Shown one piece after another: positions 8,872 to 43,635 of a stretch of DNA of 43,635 nucleotides. A program made the position numbers and the translations under genes. Source of the stretch: Candidatus Omnitrophota bacterium (GTDB lineage Bacteria; Omnitrophota; Gorgyraeia; Zapsychrales; JAHFFX01). The notes under the pieces are model-generated. The model was not told the origin of the DNA. It saw only the letters and a program-made list of their open reading frames with translations, and did not search any database. Positions within the stretch are counted from its first letter, which is position 1; each line of letters opens with the position of its first letter. The stretch lies in contig JAHFFW010000020.1 of NCBI GenBank assembly GCA_023247725.1, positions 1 through 43,635 of the forward strand, given 5' to 3'.

Positions 8872-11800
8872 CCCTTTCGGATCTTTCCATCCGCCGCCCG
8901 GTTTTTTCTTGGATGCTGATGCTCGGCCTCATTATCTTTGGAATCATTTGCATGTTCCGTCTGGGGGTCGCGCGCTTGCCGAATGTGGATTTTCCCTTCG
9001 TCAACATTCGTCTCACCTGGGAAGGCGCCTCCCCCGAGGTGATGGAATCGGATGTCGTCGATGTCGTGGAAGAAGCGATGACCAGCATTCAGGGAATCCG
9101 CGAGATCACCTCTTCGGTCCGTCAGGGCCAGGCCAACGTGACGATCGAATTGGAACTCGATAAAAATATTGACGTCGTGGTTCAAGATGTCCAGACCCGG
9201 CTCTCCCAGGCCCAGCGACAACTTCCGCGCGATTTGGATCCACCGGTTGTCACCAAAACCAATCCCGAGGATCAGCCCATCCTCTGGATCGCGGTGCGCG
9301 GCAGCGTTCCGTTGCGATTCATGATGGATTATGTTCAGAATTATTTGGAAGACCGATTTGCCACGATCAGCGGCGTGGGGGAGGTTTTCTTGGGCGGTTT
9401 CCTGGAAAGAAATTTGCGGGTCTGGATTGATGCGAAGAAACTGGATCTTTATCAGCTAACGGTCCTCGATGTCATCAATGCGATTCAACAAGGGCATTCG
9501 GAGGTTCCGGCCGGCCGTATTGAAACGCCCACCACCGAAATGAATGTCCGTTCGATGGGCGAGGCGATCAATACCGAGGAATTCGGCAATATTGTTATCC
9601 CCCTCCGGGGAGGACAGCCGGTTTACAAACCGATTTACTTAAAAGACGTCGCGACCATTGAAGATGGCCTGGCGGATTTGCGCCGTATCTCGCGGTTTAA
9701 TGGCGAGCCGGCGGTGGGGTTAGGGATCCGCAAACAACGCGGCGTCAATGAAGTGCAGGTGGCCGCTCGTGTCTTGAAACGCCTGGAAGAAATCAAAAAG
9801 GAAATTCCGCCTGGAATCCATGTGGATCTGTCGGTTGACCGAACCAAATTCACCCGGGCCGCGGTGCAGGAACTTGGATTCACCATGGGACTTTCCGCCC
9901 TGGTGACGTCCTTGGTTTGCTGGATCTTTTTAGGATCCATCAGTGCCACGCTCAATGTCTTGATCGCGATCCCGACCTCGATTCTCGGCGCTTTCATCGT
10001 CATGTACTTTCTGGGATTTACTTTAAATACCTTTACGATGATGGGGCTTTCCTTGGCCATTGGCATTGTGGTCGATGACGCGATTATGGTTTTGGAAAAC
10101 ATCGTTCGTCATCGGGAAATGGGTTTGCCCCGTCTAGAGGCAGCCCGCGTAGGCGCCAACCAGATTGCCTTTGCCGCGATGGCAACAACCCTGTCTGTTA
10201 TCGCTATCTTTCTGCCGGTGACCATGATGTCGGGCGTGATTGGAAAATTTTTTTACGAATTCGGAATCACTTTATCGATCGCGGTTGCGATCTCACTTTT
10301 GGAGGCCCTGACCTTGACGCCCATGCGCTGTTCCCAATTCCTTTCCATGGGACAGCGCCAGACATCCTTTGGCCAATTCGTCGAGCGCACCTTCAAAAGA
10401 CTTTCCATATCTTATCATGACCGATTGGCCTGGGTGCTCAATCACCGGGTATTGATTTTGCTTGCTTCTTTCGCCATCTTTGTCGGTTCTCTCTTTTTAT
10501 GGAAAACCTTGGCCAAAGAATTTATTCCACCCCAGGATCAAAGCATGTTCCTGGTCCGGCTGCAGACGCCGCCGGGTTCTTCGATCGAATTCACCGATGA
10601 GAAATTCAAGCAGGCGGAAAAGTTTATTCTGTCCCGGCCCGAAGTCAATGGCTATTTTTGCTTCATCGGAGGATTCGGCGGAGGAGAGGTCAATAGCGGC
10701 CAGATTTTTATTACCTTGAAGGAGTCGGGAAAACGTCCGGTACAGCCGCCTTATCAAAAGCCCCCGACGCAAAAGGATGTGATGAATTATTTTCGTAAGG
10801 AGTTAAGTAAGATTCCTCAGATTAAGGCCGCCATCCAGGATTTGTCCCAAAGTGGTTTATCTGCCCAACGAGGGTTTCCGGTTGAGATGACCATCTTAGG
10901 ACCGGATTGGGATCAACTGATCGAATATTCACAAGAGATTGTCAGACGGATGCAACAAACAGATTTGCTGGCTGATGTGGATACCAATTATGAATCGGGA
11001 GTCTCCGAGGTGCGGGTCATTCCGGATCGGGCAAAGGCTAGTGAACGAGGCGTTTCGATCGATGCGATTGGCCAAACCATCAATGCGCTCATCGCCGGAG
11101 AGCGGGTGGCCCGTTACACGCAGGGTGGCCGACGATATGACGTGCGCATTCGGCTGGTTCCGGAAGAACGCACGGCCGCGGAAAATATCAATGACCTCTG
11201 GGTTTGGAATAATCACGGGGAGCTTGTTCAACTGCGAGACGTCATGACCCTGACCCAAAAACAGACGGTGCAATCGATTACCCGTTCCAATCGGGAACGG
11301 GCGATCCAGGTTCGTGCCAATGTCGCCAGCGGAAAATCCCAGGCCGATGCCCTCGAGACAACCCGTCGGATCGTTCAAGAAGTGTTGCCGGCAGGCTACC
11401 GGCTGGAATCCGGAGGCAACACCAAAACTTTCCAAGAATCCTTCAGCGGTTTGTGGTTTGTTCTCTGGCTGGGCATTCTCGTTGCCTACATGGTGTTGGC
11501 TTCTCAATTCAATAGTTTCAAAGATCCGCTGACGATTTTGTTGGCGCTTCCTTTTAGTATCACCGGCGCTTTATTGGCCTTAAAAATTGCCAACCAGTCG
11601 ATCAACATTTACAGTTTTATCGGCATTGTGCTCTTGATGGGAATCGTGAAGAAAAATTCTATCCTCTTGGTCGAGTTCACGAATCAAATCAAGGAGCAGG
11701 GAAAATCGGTCAAAGAATCCCTTTTAGTGGCTTGTCCCATTCGTTTGCGTCCGATTTTGATGACGTCGTTAGCCACGGTGGCGGCGGCCATCCCGCCGGC

Positions 11801-37052: not shown

Positions 37053-37181
37053 ATGAATTCTTTACAGATCAGGATGCTTTTATTGCTGGCCACCTTATTC
37101 GGCATTATGGATACGGTTGTTGTCATGATCGGTACGGCCATGGGCATAGGAAATTGTTTAAAGGAGTTTTTATATGAATAA
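37053..37181 (+). CDS. Small hydrophobic ORF (42 aa)
   Basis: MNSLQIRMLLLLATLFGIMDTVVVMIGTAMGIGNCLKEFLYE; starts 1 nt after previous stop, overlaps next start by 8 nt. Confidence 0.45.
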   Translation: MNSLQIRMLLLLATLFGIMDTVVVMIGTAMGIGNCLKEFLYE

Positions 37182-38160
37182 TCAAAGTCTAGGGCGAAGA
37201 TCGCGGCTATTATGGATTAGTTCCATTGGTTTAGTTCAACCAGCTTTGGCTCAAACCGAACCTGTAAGCAATGCCACATGGACCTCCGATATGAATATAC
37301 CGACGGGTGTGCAGAGGGTTGCGGTCTCTCATATGGATACGGTAACGAAAATTTTTAATATGATTGTCGAAGGGATCGTGAAGTACAGCTTTCAGGTTCT
37401 CGCCGGAATCATCATTCTTTTGGCGGGGTGGCTGATCGCCCGATTCCTCGCTCGTTTGGTTCACCGGTTTTTGGTGAAATATGCCGTCGATGTGACCGTG
37501 GCGAAATTCATTGTGGGAACGGTCAAATTGGCGGTCATGGCCATGGCGGGATTGATCGCACTGGGAAAATTTGGAATCGAGATTGCCCCTTTTATTGCGG
37601 GTTTAAGCGTGATCGGTTTCGGTACCAGTTTTGCCTTGCAAGGCCCCTTATCGAATTATGCCTCTGGCGCCTCGCTCATTTTTACCAAGCCCTTCAAGGT
37701 CGGTGATATCATTGAGGTCATTGGTCAAATGGGCGAGGTGGAGGACATCACGCTTCCCCGGACGATCATCAAAACCGTTGATGGGACCAAGATCATCATT
37801 CCCAATAAACATATTATTGGGGAGGTGATCCATAATTATTCTGAACTGAAACGCGTGGACATCAATGTCAGCGTCAGTTATACCGCCGATTTGGATCAGG
37901 TGATCAATCTGATTAGATCCGTCGTGAAAAAAGATCCCCGCGTGATTGGACGCGAGCAGCAAAAAATCGGGGTCTCCCGCTTTGACGACTCGGGGATTAA
38001 TATTTCTGCTAGACTATGGTGCAAGCAGGAAGATTACTGGGATACCCTATTTGCCCTTCATAAAAGCATCTTCGATGAATTTAAGGCCCATGGCATCGTC
38101 ATTCCATTCCCGCAAAGAGAAGTTCACATCATAGAAAGCGCAAAGAAAAAAACAGCATGA
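37174..38160 (+). CDS. MscS family mechanosensitive ion channel
   Basis: TM region then ALGKFGIEIAPFIAGLSVIGFGTSFALQGPLSNYASGASLIFTKPFKVGDIIEVIGQMGEVEDITLPRTIIKTVDGTKIIIPN; AAAGGAG upstream. Confidence 0.9.
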   Translation: MNNQSLGRRSRLLWISSIGLVQPALAQTEPVSNATWTSDMNIPTGVQRVAVSHMDTVTKIFNMIVEGIVKYSFQVLAGIIILLAGWLIARFLARLVHRFLVKYAVDVTVAKFIVGTVKLAVMAMAGLIALGKFGIEIAPFIAGLSVIGFGTSFALQGPLSNYASGASLIFTKPFKVGDIIEVIGQMGEVEDITLPRTIIKTVDGTKIIIPNKHIIGEVIHNYSELKRVDINVSVSYTADLDQVINLIRSVVKKDPRVIGREQQKIGVSRFDDSGINISARLWCKQEDYWDTLFALHKSIFDEFKAHGIVIPFPQREVHIIESAKKKTA

Positions 38161-39560
38161 GTCGAGTCTCTTCAAAATTTCCATCCACTCAACAAGTTTT
38201 CTTCCTTTCCCTTCCAATCTGGATCCTGATCTTTATCCTGCCAACGATCGCCCACGCCGTTTTAAATTTGAATGCCACTCCCCTGGATGGAAGCAGTAGC
38301 CTGCGGCTTGGAAGGGTGGATACCAAAACTTCGGCCAGTCAAGAAGTCCGTCTGCGGATAAACTCGTCGGAGGGAAAACAATTTCAGATATTTCAGCGCG
38401 TGGTTCAACCGCTGACCAATGAGCGAGGAAATGAGCTTAATTCCCTCGCGCTCAAATCCTATGCCTTATCCGGTTCCAACGCCCAAGGAACGCTTTACGG
38501 CGTTGATCCTTCCCCGTTAGGCTACGCTGATCAATTGCTGTATACCTCCAGTCCAAACGGCGATAGTGATGCCTTCACTATAATATATTCGGTCAATGGC
38601 CAGGATGTGGAAGGTTCTGGTTCCTATTTGGGGCAAATTCTTTACACAGTTCGAGCCATCGGCGGGGGTGCCCAGCAAGAGGTGTTCTTAAGTGTGACAT
38701 TGGAGGCGGCGAGCGGCCTGGTCTTCAGCGTCGAAGGGTCTTCGGGAAAAGATTTGGTTCGCCTTAAATGTTTGCGCGAGGACAATCAGTCAGAGGGTTA
38801 TGCAAAGATTTCATTTTCAGGGAATACCGGGCAGGAGATCAGGATTTATCAGGATATGGATAAATTTTTAAGAGATGAGCTCAATAGTTTTCTCGGCCTT
38901 CAAGTCTTACAATTTGAAACCTCCGGCAATGCCCAAGGACAAATTGCCTTTCCCTCACCGAGCGTTTTAGAAAGGAAAAAAGTTCTGCTTTATTCGTCCA
39001 AAGCCGAGGCGGATTCATTCACCATCCGCTATTTGGTTAGTCCAGAACGATTCAACGATCAAAAGGCCGGGCGATATCAGGGGCAGCTGCACTTCTGGCT
39101 TGAAAGTGATGCGACACAAGAAAGGCGAGACCTGAATTTGGAATTGGAGGTTGCATCGATTTTTAAACTCGAGGTCAAATATCCCGAGGAGGGAGTGCAT
39201 TTTTCAAATCTTTTACCCAATTTACCGCCGCAGACGAAAGCGGTGCTGGTCCAGGTTCGTTCGAATTTAGGGAAACCTTACCTTGTCATTCAACAGGTCC
39301 CCGATCAAATGACCAATGAACGGCAAGAGAAGTTGCCACAAGGACATTTCGTCATGAAACTGGAACCCATAGAAAACTCTTCCGGAAAAACCAACTTTTC
39401 TGATTTCGTCCCGGTGCCTCTGGGCGACACGCCCATTTTTTCCTCGGATGCAAAGGGATCTTCTTCCCAATTCAAGGTTCACTACCGCCTGACGGCATTT
39501 CCGGAAATTCAGCCCGGAGATTATGCCGCGCCCATAATTTATTCTTTACAAGAGAAATAA
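38157..39560 (+). CDS. Secreted hypothetical protein with three tandem beta-rich repeats
   Basis: Signal peptide; repeats share F.I.Q...NER/RDE, PLG...L.YSS...DSFTI.Y, G.Y.GQ..Y patterns; ATGA overlap with mscS-like gene. Confidence 0.75.
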   Translation: MSRVSSKFPSTQQVFFLSLPIWILIFILPTIAHAVLNLNATPLDGSSSLRLGRVDTKTSASQEVRLRINSSEGKQFQIFQRVVQPLTNERGNELNSLALKSYALSGSNAQGTLYGVDPSPLGYADQLLYTSSPNGDSDAFTIIYSVNGQDVEGSGSYLGQILYTVRAIGGGAQQEVFLSVTLEAASGLVFSVEGSSGKDLVRLKCLREDNQSEGYAKISFSGNTGQEIRIYQDMDKFLRDELNSFLGLQVLQFETSGNAQGQIAFPSPSVLERKKVLLYSSKAEADSFTIRYLVSPERFNDQKAGRYQGQLHFWLESDATQERRDLNLELEVASIFKLEVKYPEEGVHFSNLLPNLPPQTKAVLVQVRSNLGKPYLVIQQVPDQMTNERQEKLPQGHFVMKLEPIENSSGKTNFSDFVPVPLGDTPIFSSDAKGSSSQFKVHYRLTAFPEIQPGDYAAPIIYSLQEK

Positions 39561-39615
39561 ATTAAGCTAACGTAGTAGCGTAGTTGTTTTATCATCCTTG
39601 CGAAAGGAGGTCAGT

Positions 39616-40247
39616 ATGAAAAATCAGTTTGGTTCTTTCATGTTTGGATTAGCAATTTTGCTTCTAATCCCTGCGGTCAGTTTGGCGCAAACCAGCAAAA
39701 CCTTCGTAGTTTCGGCAACCGTTCCCAGCGCAACGAGTGTCAGCATCATCGCCAATTCGGTGAATTCCTCGACGGGGGCCTTTACTTTGGCTCCCGGGAC
39801 GGCCTTGAGTTTCAACCCCCTGACCTTTAATTCCACAGCCGGGGCGTATTTCCCCGATCACTTCTTTGCCGTGGATGTGGTGGCCTCGGGAGGAGCTGGC
39901 AGCCCTAGTGCAACGGTCACCTACACCGAAGGCACCAATCCCAATAGCCCCGCACATGGGTTGGGATGGAAATCGACCGCGACTTTTGTCAAAACAACCG
40001 GTAGCGGCACGAGCACGACGGATACACCCATGGCAGCCCACGGTCCGAAAAAACTTTTAAAGGACGTCGGTGGAGAATCCATTACCTCAGCGGAGACAAC
40101 CGGAGGATGGTTGAGGGTTATCTAGGGATTGTGACCAAAGATCCGGCCGCAGCGATTCCAGATCCGGCCAGCGGCGAATTATTCACCAACGCTGATAAGC
40201 CAGGCACGTATGATGGCACCTTGCTCATTTCGGCGACGGCTCTATAA
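39616..40247 (+). pseudogene. Fimbrial-subunit-like secreted protein with an apparent frameshift near 40117-40122
   Basis: Signal peptide MKNQFGSFMFGLAILLLIPAVSLAQ; frame ends GGWLRVI* at 40125; the next frame continues YLGIVTKDPAAAIPDPASGELFTNADKPGTYDGTLLISATAL* to 40247; one extra T would join them. Confidence 0.65.
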
Positions 40248-40327
40248 TCGGGATCAGCTTTAGGAAGGGCTTTAAAGAGGGGTGTCGCGATTTGATCGGG
40301 ACATCCCTCTTATCATATCAGGAAAAA

Positions 40328-41128
40328 ATGCAGAGACTTCTTCCGTTATTCATCCTGTGCGCGTTTGTTTTTTTCCCGCGACCTGCCGGTGCACAGCTTC
40401 TCATTGAAGAGGGCAAGGTCAAGTTGAGCGTTTCGCCCGCCGAAAATATCGTCAATTCCATCACCGTCCATAATACCTCCAACGAGGAAATCGCCGTCAA
40501 GGTTTACTGGCAGGATTTCAATTATGTCGAACCCTTCGACGGAAAAAAAGCCTTTCTCCCTCCGGGTTCAATCCAAAATTCCATGACGAAATGGATCACT
40601 TTTTCACCCCAGGAATTCGTTCTCGCCCCCTTAAGCAAACGAAAAGTGACCTATACGATCAATGTGCCCAAAGACGCGCAAGGGGGGCATTACGGCGTTC
40701 TTTTTTTTGAAAAGGGAGCGAAACAAACATTAGATCGGACGGCGGTGCGTCTCATTGCCCGCGTGGGTTGTCTTTTTTTTCTAGAATCCAAGGATAAAAA
40801 AAAGACGGCGACCGTTGAGGCCCTCAAGGTTGCGGGCCAAAGGATTTTAGGCGATCTGCACAATACCGGAGATGTTATACTTCTGGCTCAGGGCATTTAC
40901 TACATCATGGATAAGGAGGGTTTGGTCGTTCATCGCGGAGAAACCGATAAAATGTATCTTCCTCCCGGAGCAAAATCAGGTTTTTCGGCCTCCGTGGCTG
41001 TGCAGATCCCATCTGGAACCTATACTCTGGTTTTGACCTTTGATTTGGAAGACGGCGATACGCTGGTCAAAGAAATCGATTTTGCCAAACAGAATGAAGC
41101 GATCAACATGCTTCAGGTGAGAGATTGA
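40328..41128 (+). CDS. Periplasmic pilus-chaperone-like (PapD-type fold) protein
   Basis: Signal peptide; LLIEEGKVKLSVSPAENIVNSITVHNTSNEEIAVKVYWQDF...FSPQEFVLAPLSKRKVTYTINVPKDAQGGHYGVLFFE. Confidence 0.7.
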   Translation: MQRLLPLFILCAFVFFPRPAGAQLLIEEGKVKLSVSPAENIVNSITVHNTSNEEIAVKVYWQDFNYVEPFDGKKAFLPPGSIQNSMTKWITFSPQEFVLAPLSKRKVTYTINVPKDAQGGHYGVLFFEKGAKQTLDRTAVRLIARVGCLFFLESKDKKKTATVEALKVAGQRILGDLHNTGDVILLAQGIYYIMDKEGLVVHRGETDKMYLPPGAKSGFSASVAVQIPSGTYTLVLTFDLEDGDTLVKEIDFAKQNEAINMLQVRD

Positions 41129-41185
41129 TGTCTTTAGAGTCGGTTTTGCGGCAAACGGCGAATCACTCGATGGGTGTGACAGCTT

Positions 41186-43545
41186 ATGTTCAAATTCTTC
41201 TTTGCGCTCTTCCTGTTTGTTGTTTGCCTTTTGCCGATTGACGCGAAACCAGTCTGGGGTGACGAATACCTCACTTACGAAAAATTAATCAGTCAGGGGA
41301 AACAAGCGCTCAATCGGGGAGATGCCCATCGGGCGCTTTTTTATTTTCATTTGGCCCGTTTGGCCAGACCTTCGTCTCAGGAAGCCCTCAACTTTATAAA
41401 TTTGGCTAAACGGGTTCAAGAGGGTCGAGTCTTAGTGGTCGAAGTCAAAAAGAGGCCAAAGACCGCAGAGACAAAAAAAATATTGTTCAAACATCTCCTC
41501 AAGAACCTAGACCTCCTCCACCCATCAGGGCCCCAATCTCGGCAAGAATCAGCGAACGTCTGGTACCAAAGCGGGCCGTGGCCGAACAAAGAAAAGATTT
41601 ACAGCCAATTGTTCAATCAATCCCTCGCGTCGTGTATACTCCGAGTTCTTCCCGTGAACCGACCAAAACTTCTGTCCGTAAGAAGCCGGTTCCAACCGCC
41701 ATCGAGGAGCTCATTCTTAATGATGAACTCTGGTCCAAACAGCCACGCACGCAGTTGAACATCGAACTGAATCGTTCGATCATCGTCCGAGGATCCCATA
41801 TCGAGCGTTTTTTGGTTTTAACGCCGGGAACGATCAGCGTCGAGCGCGTGGATAAAGATCGGGTGCGCCTGACGGGGCTCAATCGAGGAACAACGCATCT
41901 GCATTTTTGGGATGACCGCGGTCGCTGGACATTTTATGTCGAGACCATATTTCTCCTTCCGGAAGAAAAGCCAATCGTTGAACCCAAAGATACGGACATC
42001 GAGTCGGTTGAGCCATTTCATTTCGATTATTCCAATGATTGGAATGCCTATTACCTTGGTGATAGCATGCGGAATTTACAACGGCGAACCTTGAATTTTG
42101 TCCAAAACACCGCGGTCCATGGCCCTACACCCTATGGGTATTTTGATACCTTTGCTCGATTTACCAAGTTTGATCAGTCCACGGAAGTGACCGGTTATGG
42201 TGTGGGATTAACCGGTGCCAATGTCGATGATATTCATGACATCGCCATCCGCGGCTTCGATGTATCGAAGCGATTTTCCGATTTATCGCTTCCCGGAAAA
42301 TATCTGCGCGGGTTTCTCTTTAGTTCAAAAATTCTCGATAAGGATTTGGGAATTGATTATATTCGTGGAAAAGACCGATCAGTTTTTGATTTTATTTCTC
42401 CCGGCGTCACCAAAGTACGGGAATCGTTTGTTGAAGGGGCAAGGCTCACCTTATTTCCCGAGGAGGATCACCAATATGGTTTGAATTTCGCCCGGGGTTA
42501 CGGCCCTGCCCGAGAATCTTTCCTTAAAAAACGAGTCGTATCGGTGGATACGCGGCAGCGGTTTGAGGAGTTCCTTTTGCAAGGGGAAGTCGGCTACGAC
42601 GAAGAGGCTTTAGGAAAGTTATTCAGCACAACTTTTGGCGATCAGCGCCATTATCTTCGGCTCAATTTTCGTGATATTGAAAAAGACTATGTGACCATCT
42701 CGAACATTCCGGCCGATCAAGGAGAGATCGGTGGACAAATCATTTACAATTTGAACCGAGAGAGTGTCGATGTGTATTCCTTCCTCGATATTTATCGCGA
42801 CCGCGCGTTCTTTAATCCGAATGAGCCGGACGCGCTGAATTTCGATTATTCTGGAACCGTCGAGATTCCCTTTAATCCTTATTCCAGTTGGAGGCCCGCG
42901 TTATTTTACAGTGATACGCCGGAGCTTCTGTCTCCCCGACGCAACGCCCAAATCAGTAACACCTATTCTCGCCGTTTTAATCTTTCTTTTGACCGCGCCT
43001 TGGCGACGTTTCTCACTCATTCTTCTCAGCGCAGCCGTTTTGCCTTTTCGCCGTCTTCCGAATTCGACCGTCAGTCGGTCATGGCCGGTTTCAGCATTCC
43101 GATCATTCGCAGCCTGACGTATTTTGCCAATTACGAATATTCCTGGGTCAAAGAAACGCAAATCGGTAATATGTCGAACCCAAGCGTTTTAAATACAGGT
43201 TTTGGTTACAGTAAACGGATTACGGACTCTTGGTCGGGAAATTTAGGATTGACCTATCGGGACGAGGAGCAGACCGAAGGGCTTCACAGTTTTCTCGCTG
43301 GTGAAGATAGTGTCACCGGAAATATCGGCCTTTCCTTTCATCCGACGAGTGATTTCGAATTTTTTGTGGATGGCCGGATCCGCAATATCTGGCGCGAAAA
43401 TACCGAACGAGCGGCCTTTAATGAGGGGGAAATCCGTTTTGGTGTCCGGTCCTCGTGGGATCTGCCGTTTCGTTGGAATCCCGAAGGGTATGTCACCGGA
43501 TTTGTTTTTAAGGATCTTATTGAAATTTTCTCTTCCAACGATTGA
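41186..43545 (+). pseudogene. Signal peptide/TPR-like N-terminus, Pro-rich linker, secretin-N-like (pilus assembly N) domain and beta-barrel; interrupted in the reference by an apparent -1/+1 frame change at an A8 run
   Basis: ORFs 41186..41758 and 41578..43545 abut; an extra A in 41473-41480 joins TAETKK to NIVQTSPQEPRPPPPIRAPISARISERLVPKRAVAEQRKDLQP...; RGSHIERFLVLTPGTISVERVDKDRVRLTGLNRGTTHLHFWDDRGRW pattern; alternating beta-strand barrel C-terminus. Confidence 0.65.
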
Positions 43546-43635
43546 TTTAGTAGGATATCGTAATATGTATGAGACCAAATGGAAGCCAAGAAGAGATAGC
43601 GAAGCGAAGACAGCTGGCGATAAAGTTGTTGAAGC

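Follow-up and report, generated by a model that had tools for sequence, protein, structure and literature searches.

A candidate chaperone-usher-type fibre cassette with a plugless outer-membrane barrel in Omnitrophota

The window analysed here is a stretch of 43,635 nucleotides that makes up the entire contig C10 of a Candidatus Omnitrophota genome (2.19 Mb, 52 contigs). At 38157-43545 it carries four adjacent genes on the + strand, all of which, by the open reading frame list and the sequence, encode exported beta-rich proteins. A preliminary description of this DNA had singled out these consecutive secreted genes as a candidate fibre system, and the row of genes was confirmed. In order, they encode a putative tip protein (467 residues, three repeats), a pilin-like protein, a chaperone-like protein (266-278 residues) and a large barrel protein. 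We conclude that the cassette probably encodes a divergent pathway of the chaperone-usher type, one in which donor-strand complementation would build a surface fibre. The features of the locus are as follows.

38157..39560, + strand: putative tip protein, a signal peptide followed by three pilin-like beta-sandwich domains fused in one chain (residues 34-184, 186-332 and 334-467); open reading frame, hhalign, AlphaFold2 and Foldseek.
38673..38708, + strand: extra last strand of tip domain 1 (residues 173-184), a candidate built-in donor strand; AlphaFold2 strand.
39117..39152, + strand: extra last strand of tip domain 2 (residues 321-332), a candidate built-in donor strand; AlphaFold2 strand.
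39616..40247, + strand: pilin-like subunit gene, with its ATG at 39616 and AAAGGAGG upstream; sequence, homologues at the same place in relatives and three-frame translation.
39691..39726, + strand: N-terminal extension TSKTFVVSATVP of the mature pilin, a candidate donor strand; FxVxAxVP motif in the pilin alignment.
40328..41128, + strand: two-domain PapD-like periplasmic chaperone, with its ATG at 40328 and a longer start possible at 40292; PDB search and hhalign.
41186..41758, + strand: N-terminal part of the barrel protein (signal peptide and TPR helices); open reading frame and N-terminal match to intact relatives, the conserved protein being left at ~41,450-41,518.
41518..43522, + strand: next part of the barrel protein, in a second frame (linker, pil_N, barrel); profile match, model positions 130-783.
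41749..41925, + strand: T2SS-T3SS_pil_N (secretin N-type) domain; Pfam PF13629, E 4.4e-6, above the gathering score.
42013..43458, + strand: barrel region; coordinates transferred by alignment from the intact relative L028 (26 strands).
43523..43635, strand not assigned: terminus of an insertion element that occurs 18 times at contig ends; the remainder of the barrel gene is on contig C47.

We searched Omnitrophota genomes with the barrel, chaperone and tip, and plasmids with the chaperone and tip. By profile search the barrel was present in 27 of 54 relatives. Those 27 genomes all matched the chaperone profile, and 26 of them the tip profile, the exception being a truncated locus; neither profile matched elsewhere among the 54. 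The gene set is all-or-none across these relatives, so that the co-occurrence check proposed in the preliminary description came out in its favour. Flanking sequence was fetched for 20 loci, and in 19 of them the four genes run tip, pilin, chaperone, barrel along a single strand; in the remaining locus, L040, the contig stops inside the pilin gene. The chaperone reading frame is shortened in locus L032. Shared order and all-or-none co-occurrence are the operon-like clustering expected of a chaperone-usher pathway, and since the four-gene set is kept in many genomes, chance is ruled out. More widely, about 94 of 384 Omnitrophota genomes had a match over the barrel proper (a hand count from the search table; the total of 252 includes matches to SdrD domains alone). 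Seventeen of 19 more distant loci carried the chaperone at E below 1e-19. The Pfam usher family PF00577 was found in none of the 54 relatives, with a positive E. coli control, in agreement with the earlier remark that no canonical usher is present.

The copy in the window is damaged. Its pilin gene has a frame break near 40,100-40,120: the open reading frame 39598-40125 stops early, and the conserved C-terminal segment goes on in another frame to 40247. The large barrel gene is divided between two frames that overlap, the first at 41186-41758 and the second open from ~41410 to 43545, and by profile match and three-frame translation the frame changes between ~41,450 and 41,518. At 43523 the same gene is interrupted by an insertion element, whose terminus fills the window from there to 43635; the element occurs 18 times in this genome, at contig ends. 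The last ~180 residues of the protein (model positions 783-961) are on contig C47, locus L078. The simplest reading is that the cassette is probably decaying in its population, while its relatives are intact. It could instead be that the two frameshifts are assembly or sequencing errors, which would leave the insertion element as the sole break, and perhaps not in every cell: a run of eight adenines (A8) lies within the barrel frameshift zone, and such runs gain insertions and deletions in cells and in sequencing alike. We consider this doubtful, given that the same barrel gene is also broken by the insertion element and that the other 38 kb of the window revealed no evident frameshift. A mechanosensitive channel gene lies upstream (37174-38160) and shares 4 bases with the tip gene; it is absent from this place in most relatives, and we do not count it as a member of the cassette.

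The triple-repeat, beta-rich character first ascribed to the tip protein was borne out: its three repeats match one another with pairwise profile-profile probabilities of 98.7-99.7% (hhalign), and the AlphaFold2 model contains three beta-sandwich domains at a mean predicted local distance difference test (pLDDT) of 90. The best fold match of this model in the PDB is an engineered covalent homotrimer fusion of CfaB, the CFA/I pilin (E 5e-17), followed by CfaE-CfaB and CfaB dimers and then by integrin Ig (immunoglobulin) domains. Sequence searches of the PDB with the tip profile and with the pilin profile returned nothing significant, and Pfam gave nothing usable on either protein. In the model, tip domains 1 and 2 each close with an extra strand of 12 residues. 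Domain 3 is without it, stopping at the same column in 30 of 30 homologues. The second protein, described earlier as fimbrial-subunit-like, is indeed pilin-like, though its gene is frameshifted in the window. The pilin alignment has the complementary pattern: a conserved FxVxAxVP strand at the start and no extra last strand at the end. Model and sequence pattern agree with an incomplete-Ig pilin bearing an N-terminal donor strand, which would insert into the groove of its neighbour. This distribution of missing and supplied strands appears to fit what donor-strand complementation predicts. L091 and L093, two distant loci, have a pair of single-domain genes where the tip gene would be, one with an N-terminal strand and one without; the strandless protein is presumably the tip-most subunit.

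The third protein had been called PapD-type, and this assignment held. Its best PDB match in a profile search is EcpB (E 2e-4), and hhalign comparison with eight E. coli chaperones gave 93-95% over both domains, against 0.5% for a reversed control. In Pfam the window chaperone had sub-threshold Ig matches only; it also resembles WxL-interacting proteins at sub-threshold scores. Pro60 of EcpB is invariant across the chaperone-usher chaperone superfamily (PMC4654587), and an aligned proline is kept in 29 of 33 chaperones here. Tyr169 likewise aligns to a tyrosine. The G1 strand has an invariant arginine followed by [VIL]-[GA], where EcpB has R-I-G. We did not adopt an equivalence of this arginine with Lys112 of PapD, as the register differs between two alignments. 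Most close homologues finish with a conserved tail ending in Arg-Asp, possibly a docking peptide for the TPR domain of the barrel protein. The chaperone of locus L088 (5887-7590) is unusually long at 568 residues, roughly double the norm, and its C-terminal domains appear to be repeated.

Because the barrel gene in the window is damaged, we used the intact relative L028 for structural work on this protein (950 residues; AlphaFold2 with 40 sequences, pLDDT 85); fold prediction covered this protein and the tip. The model has a signal peptide, TPR-like helices (residues 32-79), a disordered linker, a beta domain corresponding to pil_N (166-246), a barrel of 26 long strands (270-751) and, behind the barrel, two beta-sandwich domains. 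Pfam identified these C-terminal domains as SdrD-B in 17 of 18 members, and their sequence is unlike that of known usher C-terminal domains. The protein beginning at 41186 is thus a predicted barrel, and the TPR region, linker, secretin-N-like domain and barrel first proposed for it are present in the intact relative; what did not stand is its reading as one continuous protein, for in the window its gene is split by the frameshift and lacks the last ~180 residues. T2SS-T3SS_pil_N was the only Pfam domain above threshold in the window cassette and the only secretin-related domain found; no secretin beta domain follows it. When the L028 model was compared with the PDB by Foldseek, ranks 1-15 were all FimD or PapC (E 9e-20 to 4e-10). 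Ushers are the nearest solved structures to the model, in favour of the usher role first suggested for the barrel; in that role the barrel would secrete and polymerise the pilins.

Several results weigh against a chaperone-usher interpretation. TonB receptors come next in the Foldseek list, from E 7e-10, and TM-scores to ushers are low (~0.25-0.30 by query length); the usher match is an argument from the ranking of a predicted model, and part of it is generic large-barrel similarity. The preliminary description had proposed a search for the usher plug domain, and there is none: the model has at most 17 residues between one strand and the next, and the barrel region spans 488-532 residues in 40 of 40 members. 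None of 18 barrel proteins had a Pfam usher match. Profile comparison of barrel and ushers gave 74% in one setting and 4% with another gap and match-column setting; non-usher barrels (FhuA, LptD, BtuB) scored as low as ushers, the match was lost with single ushers too, and the barrel region alone gave none. We dropped the claim of usher homology by sequence when the 74% match vanished under the changed setting. By the tests run the barrel falls outside the usher family, and we infer that it works in an usher-like way. Finally, Arg89 is super-conserved in archaic and alternative chaperones (PMC4654587), and the corresponding position is glycine in both of our alignments. Judged by its sequence, the chaperone is a PapD-like superfamily member, but it fails this one defining feature of the archaic and alternative clades.

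Against these points stand gene linkage, co-occurrence, the predicted folds of barrel and tip, the homology of the chaperone and the strand pattern. From these we infer secretion through the barrel, donor-strand exchange, the position of the tip and the fibre itself. In the mechanism we propose, the PapD-like periplasmic chaperone would hold each incomplete-Ig pilin, its strand G1 filling the groove. The outer-membrane barrel would stand in for the usher, its TPR and pil_N domains recruiting chaperone-subunit complexes. The fibre would pass through its wide pore, and the pair of beta-sandwich domains at its C-terminus would act as usher C-terminal domains do. The first gene would provide the tip, three pilin-like domains joined covalently, each inter-domain strand completing the domain before it. 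The third domain, left open, would then take the N-terminal strand of the first pilin, and later pilins would join at the base.

Could the cassette belong, far diverged, within one of the clades already described, the alternative (alpha, CFA/I and ECP) or the archaic, and so be no new kind of system? This is a question of classification, compatible with a chaperone-usher-type pathway. The chaperone is closest to EcpB and has R-[IV]-G in strand G1 in common with it, the tip fold is closest to CfaB and CfaE of the alternative clade, and the invariant proline of chaperone-usher systems is there in 29 of 33. We nevertheless think such membership unlikely, since no usher-specific domains were found in the barrel protein, which has no plug, a TPR and pil_N N-terminus and 26 strands, since Arg89 is absent, and since alternative systems have been published from beta/gamma-proteobacteria (PMC4654587). 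It is improbable that the barrel serves as an ordinary porin or exporter of the outer membrane (BBP2 or PEP-CTERM-associated type) and that the PapD-like and Ig-like proteins form a surface adhesin layer without polymerising through it. A weak NCBIfam match over 66 residues to TIGR03016 (PEP-CTERM-associated outer membrane protein), which at E 2e-6 stays well short of the cut-off, BBP2_2 matches in 2 of 18 barrel members, the TonB receptors among the structural neighbours and the chaperone's sub-threshold likeness to WxL-interacting proteins speak for this reading, but ushers outrank all other barrels and align over most of the protein, the barrel co-occurs strictly with chaperone and tip, and the pilins have a conserved missing-strand pattern.

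In 33 of 40 loci a fifth, convergent gene lies just past the barrel gene. It is invisible in the window because the contig ends here; in the window genome it is on contig C47 (L078 662-986). The gene encodes a secreted protein of 76-115 residues with a pilin-like N-terminal strand, a variable linker and a conserved C-terminal segment. Without the signal peptide, 7 of the 33 proteins matched the pilin strand profile at E below 0.01, against an average of 0.03 matching proteins in shuffles. Our guess is that this protein is a cap or anchor of the fibre, giving a strand without a pilin body. L097 has, in place of the small gene, a gene at 10545-11498 on the strand opposite to the barrel, in which the strand motif is followed by a complete pilin-like domain. 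Two extra pilin-like genes lie downstream of the barrel in L089 (10566-12717) and L090 (10424-12495); one of them encodes ~490-510 residues with a pilin-type match, and these may be larger adhesins.

The chaperone search of plasmids matched four Deinococcus plasmids (NW-56, D7000, D. psychrotolerans and D. deserti; loci L118-L121). Each has a chaperone matching the Omnitrophota profile (E 7e-33 to 1e-24), pilin-like neighbours and, directly downstream or one gene on, a gene for a protein of 839-1058 residues with SdrD-B or carboxypeptidase-like C-terminal domains. Most of these proteins are annotated as hypothetical; the D. deserti chaperone is annotated FimB/Mfa2. That annotation brought up type V (Mfa/Fim) pili, which we rejected on the combination of a PapD-like chaperone with a large SdrD-bearing protein. 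Only the SdrD part of the large protein is convincingly similar in sequence to the Omnitrophota barrel protein; the middle part had no convincing match, and in D. deserti not even the SdrD part reached threshold. The large protein begins with Ig/NEW3-like domains, in place of the TPR and pil_N of Omnitrophota, and there is no three-domain tip; the plasmid search with the tip protein gave no match. The gene set is carried by Omnitrophota and apparently also by some cultured Deinococcus. Tentatively, and with somewhat more doubt than confidence, we suggest that Omnitrophota and Deinococcota hold a separate chaperone-usher lineage, marked by a plugless 26-strand TPR/secretin-type barrel in the usher role, a natural pilin-trimer tip and a small donor-strand cap or anchor.

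The cassette resembles, distantly, the machinery with which E. coli makes adhesive pili. Few bacterial fibres are understood as well as chaperone-usher pili, in whose ushers an internal plug is the gate. A widespread plugless relative, if real, would reveal another means of closing the pore. It would also bring into the range of chaperone-usher-type assembly a phylum that is uncultured and in which predators and epibionts are suspected, and the Deinococcus relatives would bring the question within reach of cultured bacteria. A survey of 421 Omnitrophota genomes describes type IVa and Tad pili, with ushers, chaperones and fimbriae unmentioned (PMC10066038); the gene set is previously unrecognised.

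Among known systems, secretins of the CpaC/RcpA type have the pil_N domain (PF13629) in common with the Omnitrophota protein, which differs in being without a secretin domain and in forming a single large barrel rather than a multimeric secretin. The P-usher of Pseudomonas is a recognised usher, whereas the Omnitrophota barrel is without any usher match. As cited in PMC4793230, the P-usher (Ruer et al. 2008) is an usher with an extra transport-related domain, and to that extent it offers a precedent. FimD and PapC, the best structural matches, resemble the model of the Omnitrophota protein in their periplasmic N-terminal part, large barrel and two C-terminal beta-sandwich domains. Known ushers have a 24-strand barrel with an internal plug; the Omnitrophota barrel has 26 strands, no plug and no Pfam Usher match, with TPR and pil_N in place of the usher N-terminal domain and SdrD-B at the C-terminus. 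The alternative (alpha) pathway (EcpB/EcpA/EcpC; CfaA/CfaB/CfaE) differs in its recognisable usher, where the Omnitrophota set has a plugless barrel with other periplasmic domains, and the Omnitrophota set has three fused pilin-like domains in its tip and glycine for Arg89 in its chaperone. What the two have in common is a two-domain Ig chaperone, with detectable homology to EcpB, tip domains that fold like CfaB, and a tip-type protein whose final pilin-like domain is without its last strand.

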